A DNA stretch of 64,000 nucleotides, taken from IMG/VR virus record IMGVR_UViG_3300032242_000920, positions 1-64,000 of that record, one strand, 5' to 3'. Under the pieces are notes generated by a model. It was not told the origin of the DNA and did no database searches. It worked only from the letters and a program-made list of their open reading frames with translations. Shown here one piece after another: positions 986 through 62,495 of the stretch (its first letter is position 1; the number at the start of each line of letters is the position of its first letter). Both the position numbers and the translations under genes were made by a program. This DNA comes from a virus.

Positions 986-3067
986 ATGAGCCAATCAGCA
1001 AATGCACTTTTTACGTTTAGACGGAACTACAGCTTAATAAATCCACAGACGAATCTTCGTAACTTCTTTATTTTTGCTGCTAAAGCCTCACCTTGGCCAA
1101 ATGATCTGAATCCACCATCTGTTGACTCAAGCACAGAATCAACCGACCGTGAGATTTGTAGAGAAATTTTATTTGGAAAGTTTGTATCCAACTCATCAAT
1201 CTACATTATGACCAATCGGTATAATTGGACTGCAAATACAGTCTATGCAATGTACGATGATCTAGATTCTGCTTTATTCACAAAGCCATATTTTGTAGTG
1301 ACAGCAGAAAACGGTCAGTACAATGTATTTAAGTGCTTGAATAATAACAATGGAGCACCTTCAACTGCACAGCCATTGCTATCACAGATTCAAACACAAA
1401 CTAAAATTAATGACCAATATTATCTGACTTCTGATGGTTATCAGTGGAAGTATATGTATAGTATTCCTAGTGGAACTTTTGCAACGGTAGCTACATCAAA
1501 CTACATTCCAATTATTTCAAATGCAAATGTCACATCAAATGCAATTAATGGTGGTATTCAATCATACATGATTGCCAATAGTGGATCTTACAATACATAT
1601 ACAACTGGATATGTGACTGATACAATTGCTCTTACACCTGGTTCTGCACCGAATGTGTTTGGTCTACAAGGCTCAAATAGAACAATTCTTTCATGCAATA
1701 ATAGTAACTTCACTGCTGGAGAAACTATTACTCAGTATTATAATGGAAGTTCAGCTTCAGGTGTTCTGATTGTTGCACCTTCAACTGTTGGCTCAAATAC
1801 AATCCTTACATTGTCAAACACAACTGGTGTTTTTATTGCTGGTGCAAACATAATTCAAGGTACAACATCTGGAGCCACAGCAACACTATATGATTCGTCA
1901 ACCCCTGATATATCATCCAATTCACATTTTTATGATGGGTGTGCAATGTATATTGCATCGGGTACTGGTGCGGGTCAAATTGCTCCAATTACTACATATA
2001 CAGTAAACGGTAATACCAGAAGAGTTTATCTTGCAAACACATTTGCAGTTACACCAGACTTTACATCAAAGTACGTTATCGCCCCTCAAGTAGTGATTAA
2101 TGGTGATGGAACCGGAGCACAAGCTCTGGCAGTCATTGATCCTACAACAAATGGAATTGCTGCAGTGAGAGTAGTGAATACGGGTATTGGTTACAATTAT
2201 GCAAATGCATATACAATTCCTGCACCTTCTGGATCTACTGCATCTATCAGACCAATTATGTCTCCACGGCTTGGTCATGGCGCTCATCTACATTCTGAAT
2301 TAGCATCCACATTTGTTGAGTATAATGCTTCATTTACTACAATAGATAATACCCGAATTCCAGGTAGCGGTACAACATATCGTAGAGTCGGTGTGATTGT
2401 TGATCCACAGTTTGCAAATGTTTCGTTGACATATAACTATTCGTCCACTCCAAACTTTGTATATAGCACCGCAAATACAGTAACGGTCTACGGATCCACA
2501 TCAAATGCCCGCGGTATTCTTATTGGATCAAATCCATCAACGAACACAGTTCAACTCTCGAACGTTGTTGGTATATTCCAAACCGGTGATATTTTGACCT
2601 CACAGTATTCGGATAAGTCATATCAGACAAACACAGCATCAAATGTGGCCATCACAACGGTTGCAGGCCAAGCGGTTGCATTTAATAATCTAACTGTTCT
2701 AAATGCAAACACATATGCATTTGGTGGATCTGCATCTGCATTGGTTGGTAATACAATTTACCAAGTAAATGATTCAACGGGAACAAATAGAAGTGCTTCA
2801 GTGTTAGCATCTGGTTTTATTCAGAATGCATATTCAGTAGGATCAAATACATATTTGTCTATCACTGAAATAAGAGGTTCGTTCCAAACCAATAAATACA
2901 TTTATGGTGCTTCAAACACATCACCCATTGCTTTTAATGTTACAAGTATTACGCAGCCTGACCTAATTCCATACACGGGCAATATTCTATATGTGCAGAA
3001 TATTCAACCTGTGGTACGAAATACAGTTCAGTCTGAGGTTCTAAGATTGATAACAGGATTTAATTAA
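986..3067 (+). CDS. gp8: Baseplate wedge protein gp8 homologue
   Basis: The N-terminal 200 residues follow T4 gp8: an early FIFAAKASPWPND segment, a YNVFKCLNN strand and the SDGYQWKYMYSIPSG segment, matching the VYRCLD and DGYVWEYLFEIP positions of T4 gp8. At 693 residues it is about twice the T4 length (334). The extra length lies in the middle and C-terminus as repetitive Asn/Thr/Ser-rich strands, as in other non-enteric T4-like phages. In T4, gp8 dimers join gp7, gp10 and gp53 in each baseplate wedge. The gene sits 9 bp after the previous gene and 9 bp before the next, suggesting one late operon. Confidence 0.8.
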   Translation: MSQSANALFTFRRNYSLINPQTNLRNFFIFAAKASPWPNDLNPPSVDSSTESTDREICREILFGKFVSNSSIYIMTNRYNWTANTVYAMYDDLDSALFTKPYFVVTAENGQYNVFKCLNNNNGAPSTAQPLLSQIQTQTKINDQYYLTSDGYQWKYMYSIPSGTFATVATSNYIPIISNANVTSNAINGGIQSYMIANSGSYNTYTTGYVTDTIALTPGSAPNVFGLQGSNRTILSCNNSNFTAGETITQYYNGSSASGVLIVAPSTVGSNTILTLSNTTGVFIAGANIIQGTTSGATATLYDSSTPDISSNSHFYDGCAMYIASGTGAGQIAPITTYTVNGNTRRVYLANTFAVTPDFTSKYVIAPQVVINGDGTGAQALAVIDPTTNGIAAVRVVNTGIGYNYANAYTIPAPSGSTASIRPIMSPRLGHGAHLHSELASTFVEYNASFTTIDNTRIPGSGTTYRRVGVIVDPQFANVSLTYNYSSTPNFVYSTANTVTVYGSTSNARGILIGSNPSTNTVQLSNVVGIFQTGDILTSQYSDKSYQTNTASNVAITTVAGQAVAFNNLTVLNANTYAFGGSASALVGNTIYQVNDSTGTNRSASVLASGFIQNAYSVGSNTYLSITEIRGSFQTNKYIYGASNTSPIAFNVTSITQPDLIPYTGNILYVQNIQPVVRNTVQSEVLRLITGFN

Positions 3068-39684: not shown

Positions 39685-39707
39685 TCTTTGATCGGAGAAA
39701 AAAATTG

Positions 39708-39736
39708 GGGTGGGGGGAAACTCCCACCCTTTTTTT
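39708..39736 (+). terminator. Intrinsic terminator after gp23
   Basis: GGGTGGG (39708-39714) pairs with CCCACCC (39723-39729) around an 8-nt loop and is followed by a run of seven T, giving a textbook terminator 24 bp after the capsid stop. Confidence 0.85.
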
Positions 39737-39752
39737 ATGTACTTTGTTTGTA

Positions 39753-39760
39753 GATAAATA
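39753..39760 (+). promoter_or_regulatory. Late promoter candidate (GATAAATA)
   Basis: GATAAATA between the gp23 terminator and the following tail gene, 24 bp before its chosen ATG. Confidence 0.4.
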
Positions 39761-39783
39761 TATAATGAAATATGGAGATTGGC

Positions 39784-49618: not shown

Positions 49619-49647
49619 TTTACTTTATCTAGACAATGTGTTATATT
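49619..49647 (+). promoter_or_regulatory. Promoter before gp45 (TTTACT-N17-TATATT)
   Basis: TTTACT at 49619-49624, a 17-bp spacer ending TGTGT, then TATATT at 49642-49647, 31 bp before the clamp ATG, with an AAGGAG site downstream. Confidence 0.65.
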
Positions 49648-49678: not shown

Positions 49679-50353
49679 ATGAAGTTGAGTGAAACTACCC
49701 TGAATATTCTGAAGAACTTTTCTGCCATTAATCAGAGCATTAAGATTACTGGTGGGACTACCATTTCAACCATTGCACCGACAAAGACTGTCCTTGCTAA
49801 GGCTGAAGTTCCTGATTTGTTTGATCGACCTTTTTGTATCTATGATCTTAACCGGTTTCTTTCAATCCTTTCTATGTTTGAAGATCCGGAAATTACACTT
49901 GATACAACCAGCTTGATTATCTCCGACGCCAAGACAGGCAATGGTCTTCAGAAGGTTACTTATCGGTACTGTGATGAAAAGGTGATTGTTGCTGCACCTG
50001 CAAATGATGTAAACTTTCCTAAGCCAGATGTATCGTTTACTCTGACTCAGAAGGACATTGCCAAGGTAAACAAGGCAGCTGGTGTCCTTCAACTTCCTGA
50101 AATTGCTATTGTTGGTGAGGAAGGTAACCTTTACCTTCGGTCAGTGAATAGTAAGGATGCTGGTTCGGATGCATTCAATGTTCTTGTTGGTGAATCTGAC
50201 ACTGACTTTGTTGCAACATTTAAGCCTGAATACTTCTCCAAGCTCATTGCGGGTGACTACGAAGTTGAAGTTTCATCCAAGAAGATCTCACGCTTTACCG
50301 GTAAGAATGTAGTCTACTATATTGCTGTTGAAGCAAATTCTACTTTTGCTTGA
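49679..50353 (+). CDS. gp45: Sliding clamp gp45
   Basis: 224 residues, near T4 gp45 (228). MKLSETTLNILKNFSAINQSI, LFDRPFCIYDLNRFLSIL and the C-terminal ISRFTGKNVVYYIAVEANS follow the T4 clamp. The trimeric ring tethers gp43 to DNA and, with gp55, activates late transcription. It has its own promoter and is followed by a large hairpin that may limit read-through to the clamp-loader genes. Confidence 0.9.
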   Translation: MKLSETTLNILKNFSAINQSIKITGGTTISTIAPTKTVLAKAEVPDLFDRPFCIYDLNRFLSILSMFEDPEITLDTTSLIISDAKTGNGLQKVTYRYCDEKVIVAAPANDVNFPKPDVSFTLTQKDIAKVNKAAGVLQLPEIAIVGEEGNLYLRSVNSKDAGSDAFNVLVGESDTDFVATFKPEYFSKLIAGDYEVEVSSKKISRFTGKNVVYYIAVEANSTFA

Positions 50354-50358
50354 TTTTT

Positions 50359-50417
50359 GGTTTACAATTTGCGCAGAAGATATATTGTGAATATACTTTC
50401 CACGCAAATTGTAAACC
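50359..50417 (+). promoter_or_regulatory. 59-bp dyad between clamp and clamp-loader genes
   Basis: GGTTTACAATTTGCG (50359-50373) and CGCAAATTGTAAACC (50403-50417) are perfect 15-bp inverted arms. Centred exactly between them, TATATT and AATATA (50381-50395) form an inner 6-bp palindrome around GTG, with 7-nt spacers on both sides. The RNA would fold as one long hairpin, followed by a T run (GTTTTTATT), so partial termination is possible. A -10-like TATACT overlaps the inner part. Confidence 0.75.
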
Positions 50418-50438
50418 GTTTTTATTATGGAGAATTAT

Positions 50439-51386
50439 ATGAGTGATGACTTTTTGTGGGTGGAAAAGTATCGACCAAAGACGGTTGATGATTGTATCCT
50501 TACTGATAAGCTCAAGGCTACATTTAAGGAATTTGTAAACCAAAAAAATGTTCCTAATCTACTGCTTTCGGGTAGTGCTGGTTGTGGCAAGACAACTATT
50601 GCCAAGGCCATGCTTGAGGAACTTGGGTGTGATTATATTGTAATCAATGGTTCATTGAATGCAAATATGGATGCTCTCCGAACTCAGCTTAGTAACTATG
50701 CCTCGGCTGTAAGTTTCTCTGGAACTCGAAAGTATGTCATCCTTGATGAGGCCGACTATTTGTCTGCTGGTGGTAACAGCCCAGTTCAGCCCGCACTCCG
50801 AAACTTCATGGAAGAGTATTCGTCCAATTGTGGGTTTATTCTGACTTGTAACTTCAAGAATCGTATTATTGAACCTCTACATTCTCGTTGTTCGGTAGTA
50901 GACTTCAAGATTAATAAGGCAGATCTACCCTCACTTTCAGTCCAATTTCTTAAGCGTGCTTGCATGATTTTGGATACCGAGGGTGTTGCATATGACAAGA
51001 AGGTTGTCGCAGCAGTAATTTCAAAGCACTCACCCGATTGGCGCCGAGTGTTGAATGAACTTCAGCGCTATTCGGCCACAGGTAAAATTGATGAGGGTAT
51101 TCTTGTTAACTTCTCCGATGAAGCATATAAGAAACTCATTGGTCATCTGAAGCAAAAGGACTTTGGTGCCGCTCGAAAGTGGATTGCCGAAAACATTGAT
51201 ATTGATACTGATATGTTGTTCAAGTCTCTGTATGACAATTGTTATGATCTTCTTGTACCACAGTCAATTCCAGATCTGATTTTGATCTTGGCAAAGTACC
51301 AATACCAGGCCGCATTTGTTGCCAACAAGGAAATCAACCTTGCCGCGGCCATTATTGAAGTTCTGGCGAATTGTTCGTTCAAATGA
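50439..51386 (+). CDS. gp44: Clamp loader large subunit gp44
   Basis: Start chosen at ATG 50439, six bases after GGAG; an ATG at 50427 precedes that site. The 315 residues carry LWVEKYRPKTVDDCIL, Walker A SGSAGCGKTT with Lys51, Walker B ILDEAD (103-106) and the HSRCSVVDF SRC motif with the arginine finger. With gp62 it loads the gp45 clamp. Its stop overlaps gp62 by 4 bp. Confidence 0.94.
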   Translation: MSDDFLWVEKYRPKTVDDCILTDKLKATFKEFVNQKNVPNLLLSGSAGCGKTTIAKAMLEELGCDYIVINGSLNANMDALRTQLSNYASAVSFSGTRKYVILDEADYLSAGGNSPVQPALRNFMEEYSSNCGFILTCNFKNRIIEPLHSRCSVVDFKINKADLPSLSVQFLKRACMILDTEGVAYDKKVVAAVISKHSPDWRRVLNELQRYSATGKIDEGILVNFSDEAYKKLIGHLKQKDFGAARKWIAENIDIDTDMLFKSLYDNCYDLLVPQSIPDLILILAKYQYQAAFVANKEINLAAAIIEVLANCSFK

Positions 51387-51772
51387 GTACAAACCCATTT
51401 GACTTTATTAATGATGTGACTAATCTAAAGAACAACCTGATCAGAAAGGCAGATGATCCCGCCAAGAAAGCCGAGGAATATAATCCTTGGTTGACAAATA
51501 ATACACTATCATACTTTCCAGATACTGTATTGTATGCCAATGAAATGAACAAATATTATTTTCTTCCTAATCTAGTTCAGTATGATTATTTTTATAATAC
51601 CATAAATAAAAGGAAGAGAATTGTTAAGCAATCAAAGCAAGTTATTTCTGATGATCTAAAGATGGTAATGAAATATTTTGGATATAACCATCGTAGAGCA
51701 CAAGAAGCAATGCAACTTTTGACTGTCGAACAACTCACTGAAATAAAAACAAAACTGAATGTTGGTGGGTAA
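51383..51772 (+). CDS. gp62: Clamp loader small subunit gp62
   Basis: 129 residues from the ATG that overlaps the gp44 stop (ATGA). NPFDFINDVTNLKNN, YNPWLTNNTLSYFPDTVLYAN and YFGYNHRRAQEAMQLL agree with the short gp62 of cyanophage-type T4-like phages rather than the 187-residue T4 protein. One gp62 joins four gp44 in the clamp loader. Position after gp44 supports the call. Confidence 0.85.
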   Translation: MSTNPFDFINDVTNLKNNLIRKADDPAKKAEEYNPWLTNNTLSYFPDTVLYANEMNKYYFLPNLVQYDYFYNTINKRKRIVKQSKQVISDDLKMVMKYFGYNHRRAQEAMQLLTVEQLTEIKTKLNVGG

Positions 51773-51774
51773 AA

Positions 51775-52167
51775 ATGATAGAATCTTTAGTAGAAGTAAA
51801 GCTAATAGATGAGGAGAACTTCCTTGTCATTAAGGAAACATTGACCAGAATTGGAATTGCTTCTAAGACAAATAAAACAATATATCAATCGTGCCATATC
51901 TTGCATAAGCGTGGCAAATATTATATTGTGCATTTCAAGGAACTATTCTTGCTTGATGGCAAGACCAATACTGAGTTCACTGATGATGATATTGGTCGTA
52001 GAAATACTATCATTAATCTACTTGAACAATGGAATCTTATTGACATTGTGAATAAGAAACAAACCGAAACTCCTGTTGTTCCTATTTCGACTATTAAGAT
52101 TTTATCACATAAAGACAAAAAAGATTGGCAATGTCTAGCAAAATATAGTATCGGCAATAAAAAGTAA
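51775..52167 (+). CDS. regA: Translational repressor RegA
   Basis: 130 residues. NFLVIKETLTRIGIASKTNK, QSCHILHKRGKYYIVHFKEL and the late LAKYSIGNK track T4 RegA closely (VKETLTRMGIA, YQSCHILQKKGLYYIVHFKE). RegA binds around the start codons of early mRNAs, including gp44 and gp45 in T4, and represses translation. It follows gp62 by 2 bp, as in T4. The AU-rich starts of gp45 and gp44 here are plausible targets. Confidence 0.93.
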   Translation: MIESLVEVKLIDEENFLVIKETLTRIGIASKTNKTIYQSCHILHKRGKYYIVHFKELFLLDGKTNTEFTDDDIGRRNTIINLLEQWNLIDIVNKKQTETPVVPISTIKILSHKDKKDWQCLAKYSIGNKK

Positions 52168-52650: not shown

Positions 52651-52651
52651 C

Positions 52652-52735
52652 ATGGCAGTAACTGTTTCTAGAACTCTGGCGCTTATTATTGCGTCAACTT
52701 GCTTTTCATTAACTGCAGCAATTCTATTCTTTTAA
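52652..52735 (+). CDS. 27-residue membrane peptide
   Basis: A short frame 1 bp after the Hsp20 stop with an AAAGGAA site. After MAVTVSRT it is one hydrophobic helix (LALIIASTCFSLTAAILFF), enough to cross the inner membrane. It ends 14 bp before the bidirectional terminator, opposite the lysis cassette. It may be a small membrane effector, or a chance frame; no homologue is recalled. Confidence 0.4.
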   Translation: MAVTVSRTLALIIASTCFSLTAAILFF

Positions 52736-52749
52736 GATAGACAACTTGG

Positions 52750-52775
52750 AAAGAGGGGAAGCAATTCCCCTCTTT
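52750..52775. terminator. Bidirectional terminator between convergent genes
   Basis: AAAGAGGGGAA (52750-52760) and TTCCCCTCTTT (52765-52775) are perfect 11-bp arms around GCAA, with A-rich and T-rich ends. It ends the Hsp20 transcript on + and the lysis transcript on -. Confidence 0.88.
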
Positions 52776-52779
52776 TTAG

Positions 52780-62444: not shown

Positions 62445-62495
62445 TTGACATATCTCCTCAGTTGGTATAGAACTAATCTATCAACTGAGGAGATA
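62445..62495 (+). promoter_or_regulatory. Early promoter with 14-bp palindromic operator-like repeat
   Basis: TTGACA 62445-62450, 17-bp spacer, TAGAAC 62468-62473. TATCTCCTCAGTTG (62451-62464) fills most of the spacer and is a perfect inverted repeat of CAACTGAGGAGATA (62482-62495), whose GAGGAGA is also the ribosome-binding site of the next gene. Confidence 0.7.

Follow-up and report, generated by a model that had tools for sequence, protein, structure and literature searches.

The 64,000-nucleotide stretch analysed here (the window) comprises positions 1-64,000 of the 71.8-kb IMG/VR record IMGVR_UViG_3300032242_000920, whose source is a T4-like phage. The genes for the sliding clamp (gp45), the clamp loader (gp44 and gp62) and the translational repressor RegA lie in the order gp45, gp44, gp62, regA on one strand, with a 59-nt dyad between gp45 and gp44. 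The features of the region are as follows.

49619..49647, + strand: promoter-like TTTACT-17-TATATT, 5' of gp45 (consensus match only)
49679..50353, + strand: gp45 sliding clamp gene (PF09116)
50359..50417, + strand: 59-nt dyad, an RNA hairpin of 25 pairs as + strand RNA (inverted repeat, fold, covariation with relatives)
50359..50373, + strand: 5' outer arm GGTTTACAATTTGCG, 15 nt, exact reverse complement of the 3' arm
50381..50395, + strand: inner palindrome TATATT-GTG-AATATA forming the apex, halves 50381-50386 and 50390-50395 around GTG
50381..50386, + strand: possible -10 box TATATT at the apex, with TTGGTT at 50357-50362, spacer 18 (weak, not above shuffles)
50361-50366 and 50383-50388, + strand: alternative TTTACA and TATTGT, spacer 16 (weak, not above shuffles)
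50403..50417, + strand: 3' outer arm CGCAAATTGTAAACC, 15 nt, pairing perfectly with the 5' arm
50418..50426, + strand: T-rich tail GTTTTTATT, the 3' end region expected if the dyad terminates
50429-50432, + strand: gp44 Shine-Dalgarno GGAG (read from the sequence)
50439..51386, + strand: gp44 clamp loader gene (PF00004 and PF21328, Gp44_lid)
51383..51772, + strand: gp62 clamp loader subunit gene (PF16790)
51775..52167, + strand: regA translational repressor gene (PF01818)

The dyad begins 5 nt past the gp45 stop and ends 21 nt ahead of the gp44 start, and the gp44 Shine-Dalgarno sequence is left free, outside the hairpin. The original prediction described 15-bp arms at equal distances of 7 nt from an inner 6-bp palindrome with a GTG loop, and both coordinates and anatomy prove exact, with spacers of 7 nt between outer arms and inner palindrome on both sides; the single RNA hairpin of about 25 pairs and following T run that it foresaw are recovered as a + strand fold of 25 pairs followed by GTTTTTATT. 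The 101-nt region around the dyad folds at -30.2 kcal/mol (z = -6.6), a value equalled by none of 200 dinucleotide shuffles; the complementary strand folds equally well or better (-33), and the strand is therefore not decided by the fold alone. The dyad exceeds every other inverted repeat of the 64 kb in length, with 24 of 29 symmetric positions complementary about its centre as compared with 19 at the runner-up centres and a mean of 7.7 (sd 2.4) across the 64-kb window, and it is present as one copy in the 71.8-kb record. The stem is AT-rich with central mismatches, and TTTTT follows it on the gene strand, one G preceding and interrupting the T-run. Rfam covariance models gave no match above gathering score in the window, and a tRNA scan of the window found none.

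A scan of viral contigs with gp45, gp44 and their relatives yielded several hundred loci at which the junction could be compared. The gp45-gp44 gaps of relatives, in which it had been proposed to look for covarying arms, hold compensating arms in five distinct relatives (L163, L225, L226, L228 and L453; the L227 dyad is identical to that of L226, and L211 is the same as L163). Each of these has a dyad of 59 nt that shares its centre and the ends GGTTTA...TAAACC with the window copy and resembles it at the apex, and all five end in TTTTTT(T) after the stem. The window and L163 are identical at 41 of 59 positions, and six differing pairs are compensatory. When the six 59-nt dyads are aligned (covariation was also computed on a five-sequence alignment), 91% of cells pair as against 28-52% in slid controls, and both-side changes occur at 9 pairs, a number matched by 0 of 500 shuffles. 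The pattern GGTTTA-N46-48-TAAACC-N-TTTTT is found in 83 stretches of 2.9 million viral contigs; every near-complete dyad among these lies between gp45 and gp44, and the remaining stretches have weaker folds and are different in kind. The 15-nt arm by itself gives 60 isolated matches in the 2.9 million contigs, one per contig and never paired, which is chance level, and among 15 matches of the apex motif GATATANTGTGAATATA in viral contigs only that in L211 (= L163) lies inside a dyad. The hairpin between the clamp and loader genes is real and evolutionarily maintained.

What is constant and what varies within this family bears on whether the dyad is an operator, bound as DNA or RNA by RegA or by an unknown dimeric regulator. 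Its perfect symmetry, the conservation in the 59-nt family of the ends GGTTTA/TAAACC and of the apex T.TGAAT (the longer apex motif TA.A.T.TGAAT is mostly kept in relatives), and the recurrence of the arm's -35-like GTTTAC at other promoter-like sites of the window would all suit a binding site, but the arms vary freely with compensation and the stems of most relatives are wholly different. RegA sites, moreover, are reported to be without secondary structure and to be located at the start codon (PMC3014915). An unstructured A+U-rich site at the AUG is not what is found here, the dyad being strongly structured and ending 21 nt before the AUG, and the RegA option of the original prediction is accordingly not borne out; operator function of either kind appears quite improbable.

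The gp45-gp44 gaps of 208 loci form three classes: in 42 loci the gap measures 20 nt or less, in 77 it measures 21-130 nt, and in 89 it exceeds 130 nt and commonly holds an inserted gene. A hairpin with a T-run is present in 25 of 41 non-redundant gaps of 40-130 nt, 5.4 being expected from dinucleotide shuffles, by a conservative caller that fails to pick up the window copy owing to mismatches in the middle of its stem. A second caller, which accepts the window copy, finds such hairpins in 21 of 35 gp45-gp44 gaps, the figure for size-matched gaps between other co-directional genes at these loci being 40 of 167 (p = 7e-5). The junction hairpins are frequently unrelated in sequence, most relatives having wholly different stems at the same place, and stem-loops are found in the gp45-gp44 gap of the isolates DLP6, JSE, KP179, AbTZA1, Lw1, 44RR, K352 and Dhakavirus CLBP2, those of K352 and DLP6 being without a good T-run. 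T4's own junction hairpin is weak, 31 of 200 shuffles being equally good, and HTVC008M and S-CAM8 have practically no gp45-gp44 gap and no element. The junction hairpin is thus common yet dispensable. Well conserved gp45 and gp44 genes that had lost the pairing potential between them were to count against the element, and this holds in part, in that good gp45 and gp44 genes abut in many relatives and the element is absent there. At loci in which another gene separates gp45 from gp44 (L150, L153, L158, L160, L165, L168, L176 and L177), a promoter-like dyad TTGCAT-TCTAACATNNNNNNTGTGT-TAGAAT followed by ATATTTTTATG recurs just 5' of gp44.

The strand on which the structure is selected can be approached through the wider set of hairpins; the 59-nt family alone is uninformative in this respect, with G-U versus A-C cells at 11 versus 8 in the family and at 1 versus 3 in the window. 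Among 43 strong junction hairpins there are 41 G-U versus 14 A-C cells, and a T-rich tail follows on the + strand in 32 of the 43 versus 3 on the - strand (A-rich upstream flanks). The G-U excess together with the one-sided T-tails points to selection on the + strand RNA. A DNA cruciform, a replication-origin element or a small palindromic mobile element would also account for the symmetry, which is present in the DNA too, but the G-U pairs and one-sided T-tails favour a transcribed RNA, the dyad is single-copy in the record with its arm recurring elsewhere only as isolated 15-mers that are never paired, and strong dyads are found only at gp45/gp44. The cruciform or origin option that had been offered finds no support in view of the strand-specific T-run and the family-wide excess of G-U over A-C, and a function as DNA element of any of these kinds is barely credible.

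It appears likely that the dyad acts as a leaky intrinsic terminator of the gp45 message. Transcripts begun upstream of gp45, the likely source being the promoter-like TTTACT-17-TATATT (49619..49647), would meet a U-tailed hairpin, and part of them would end at about 50419-50426. Such partial ending after gp45 would provide extra clamp mRNA, read-through transcripts would go on into gp44-gp62-regA, and clamp expression would thereby be uncoupled from loader expression; termination, its efficiency and its effect on the protein ratio are all proposed here from sequence. The transcript of the window dyad contains both a stable stem-loop (z = -6.6, 25 pairs, covariation) and, right after the stem, a U-rich tract (GTTTTTATT, with one G before the T-run). 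The leaky terminator among the options of the original prediction is well supported by the junction hairpin with T-run in many relatives, by the covariation and by the strand bias, and the window's own score is borderline: its d-score is -8 versus +38 to +50 in the cousins, lower because the G breaks the U-tract and because of the central stem mismatches. With so low a score partial read-through into gp44-gp62-regA is to be expected. A simple terminator scan did not call the window dyad, and given this, the AT-rich stem, the broken U-tract and the low d-score, the window terminator may be weak.

Other terminator-like structures are present in the window. A classical terminator, GGGTGGGGGGAAACTCCCACCC-TTTTTTT, lies at 39685-39771 (d-score +67) and is followed by a motif, ATAAATAT, that resembles the T4 late promoter; a bidirectional terminator-like hairpin, GAAAGAGGGGAAGCAATTCCCCTCTTTTT, is found at 52651-52779, at the convergent junction after an Hsp20 gene.

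The same stem is probably also protective for the 3' end of the gp45 message, and it is conceivable, if rather unlikely, that its role is post-transcriptional only, as a stem that shields the gp45 mRNA 3' end or marks cleavage in a joint transcript with no termination. The hairpin is strong and stable and sits right behind gp45, and it stays with gp45 upon gene insertion: in L228, gp44 is separated by an extra ORF from the 59-nt element, which directly follows gp45, and this places the element on the gp45 3' side; a GC-rich hairpin in L266 likewise remains directly behind gp45 with an extra ORF before gp44. A purely stabilizing stem would fit as well with the hairpins of some relatives that have no good T-run (K352, DLP6) and with the processing sites reported for the T4 replication cluster (title of Hsu and Karam 1990). 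It would need no T-rich tail, however, and yet most junction hairpins have one.

A further feature of the junction in relatives, absent from the original prediction and the most interesting part of the comparison, is a promoter nested in the hairpin loop. Strong sigma-70 promoters (score at least 9) occur in 14 of the 41 gaps versus 1.2 expected, and their -10 boxes are mostly no more than 2 nt from the loop centre. Among 256 non-redundant consensus promoters from all loci, a hairpin with T-run surrounds 9 of the 19 that lie just 5' of gp44 versus 2 of 237 elsewhere (p = 4e-10), and the two exceptions are also located between gp45 and gp44; all 11 non-redundant loop promoters with a T-run fall between these two genes. 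TATAAT is kept while the stems differ (L137, L161, L190, L200, L260), and GC-rich hairpins in which the loop is TATAAT, preceded at a distance of 17 nt by TTGACA or TTGACT, are seen at L137, L161, L167, L190, L200, L242, L246, L260, L275, L300 and L341. A wider list of loop -10 boxes in GC-rich terminator-like hairpins adds L266 and L385 and places the L137 site at 2935-3000. Similar structures occur elsewhere: upstream of gp45 at L260:1190-1260 there is a second TATAAT-loop hairpin with TTGACT 17 nt before and a weak T-run, and in an intergenic gap of the window at 62451-62495 there is a strong hairpin, TATCTCCTCAGTTGGTA / TATCAACTGAGGAGATA, without a T-run but with TTGACA just upstream and TATAGA close to the apex.

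These arrangements bring up a tentative alternative in which the hairpin terminates the gp45 message and the same DNA, through its apex -10 box, provides the core promoter from which gp44-gp62-regA is transcribed. An RNA started there would begin inside the 3' arm; without the 5' arm it would form no hairpin and so escape termination, and a released polymerase could re-initiate on the spot. A polymerase just released at an intrinsic terminator can in fact re-initiate at a close promoter in vitro (PMC6978380), in a system in which promoter and terminator are separate; in relatives of the window phage, by contrast, the loop of the terminator itself contains the -10 box. The possible -10 box of the window is homologous by position to the strong -10 boxes of relatives, and the 59-nt family mostly keeps both the apical T.(T/C)A.T and the upstream TTGGTT. 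Against this, the best promoter match in the window is no better than shuffles (p ~0.25; 1 found versus 0.9 expected), the matches of L163 and L225 are also not above shuffles, and L453 has TGTAGT in place of TATAGT. A loop promoter in the window itself is thus only weakly suggested. That the junction DNA serves as a terminator in its RNA form and through its loop -10 box as DNA, handing over from termination to re-initiation, with the window dyad a divergent, activator-dependent version, may be entertained as a possibility, though a doubtful one. The literature searched on terminators with embedded promoters and on phage ONT-cappable-seq yielded no description of a promoter in a terminator loop.

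The sliding clamp is needed for replication and also as an activator of T4 late transcription (PMC2988020), and with these two roles the amount of clamp made per loader is of consequence. A junction hairpin that recurs, changes rapidly in sequence and keeps its pairing is, under the favoured reading as a leaky terminator, a concrete candidate for a setting of the clamp:loader ratio at the level of transcription. Many environmental relatives have the promoter placed within the terminator loop, a compact regulatory design; if the tentative dual function is true, a single short piece of DNA would close the clamp message and open that of the loader genes.

In T4-like phages the same gene junctions are repeatedly predicted to hold terminators (Nolan et al. 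2006, PMC1524935). The passage of that paper on conserved terminators names junctions after uvsW.1, 35, 23 and 32 and upstream of alt, and it names neither the 45/44 junction nor a loop promoter. In T4 itself the intercistronic CUUCGG hairpin occupies the same junction as the window dyad, the clamp-loader gap, and consists of 6 pairs with a UUCG tetraloop (-7.5 kcal/mol, not significant versus shuffles), without sequence similarity to the window dyad. Hsu and Karam 1990 (cited in PMC2988021) reportedly dealt, to go by the title, with the sites at which transcripts of the T4 replication cluster are initiated, terminated and processed and, like Yeh et al. 1998, are said to have mapped the T4 45-44-62 transcripts; a mapped T4 3' end at the 45/44 junction may already be published. 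Intrinsic terminators, like the window dyad, have a stem-loop and then a T-run on the coding strand at a gene end, and their stem sequence is free to vary if pairing is kept, as in the dyad family. Unlike usual intrinsic terminators, the window's stem reaches an unusual length (59 nt, 25 pairs), is rich in AT and is followed by an interrupted U-tract, and it lies inside a functional gene cluster, so that read-through must be expected. The window dyad is ordinary in kind, a terminator-like hairpin, and is unusual in its length and in its position-specific recurrence.
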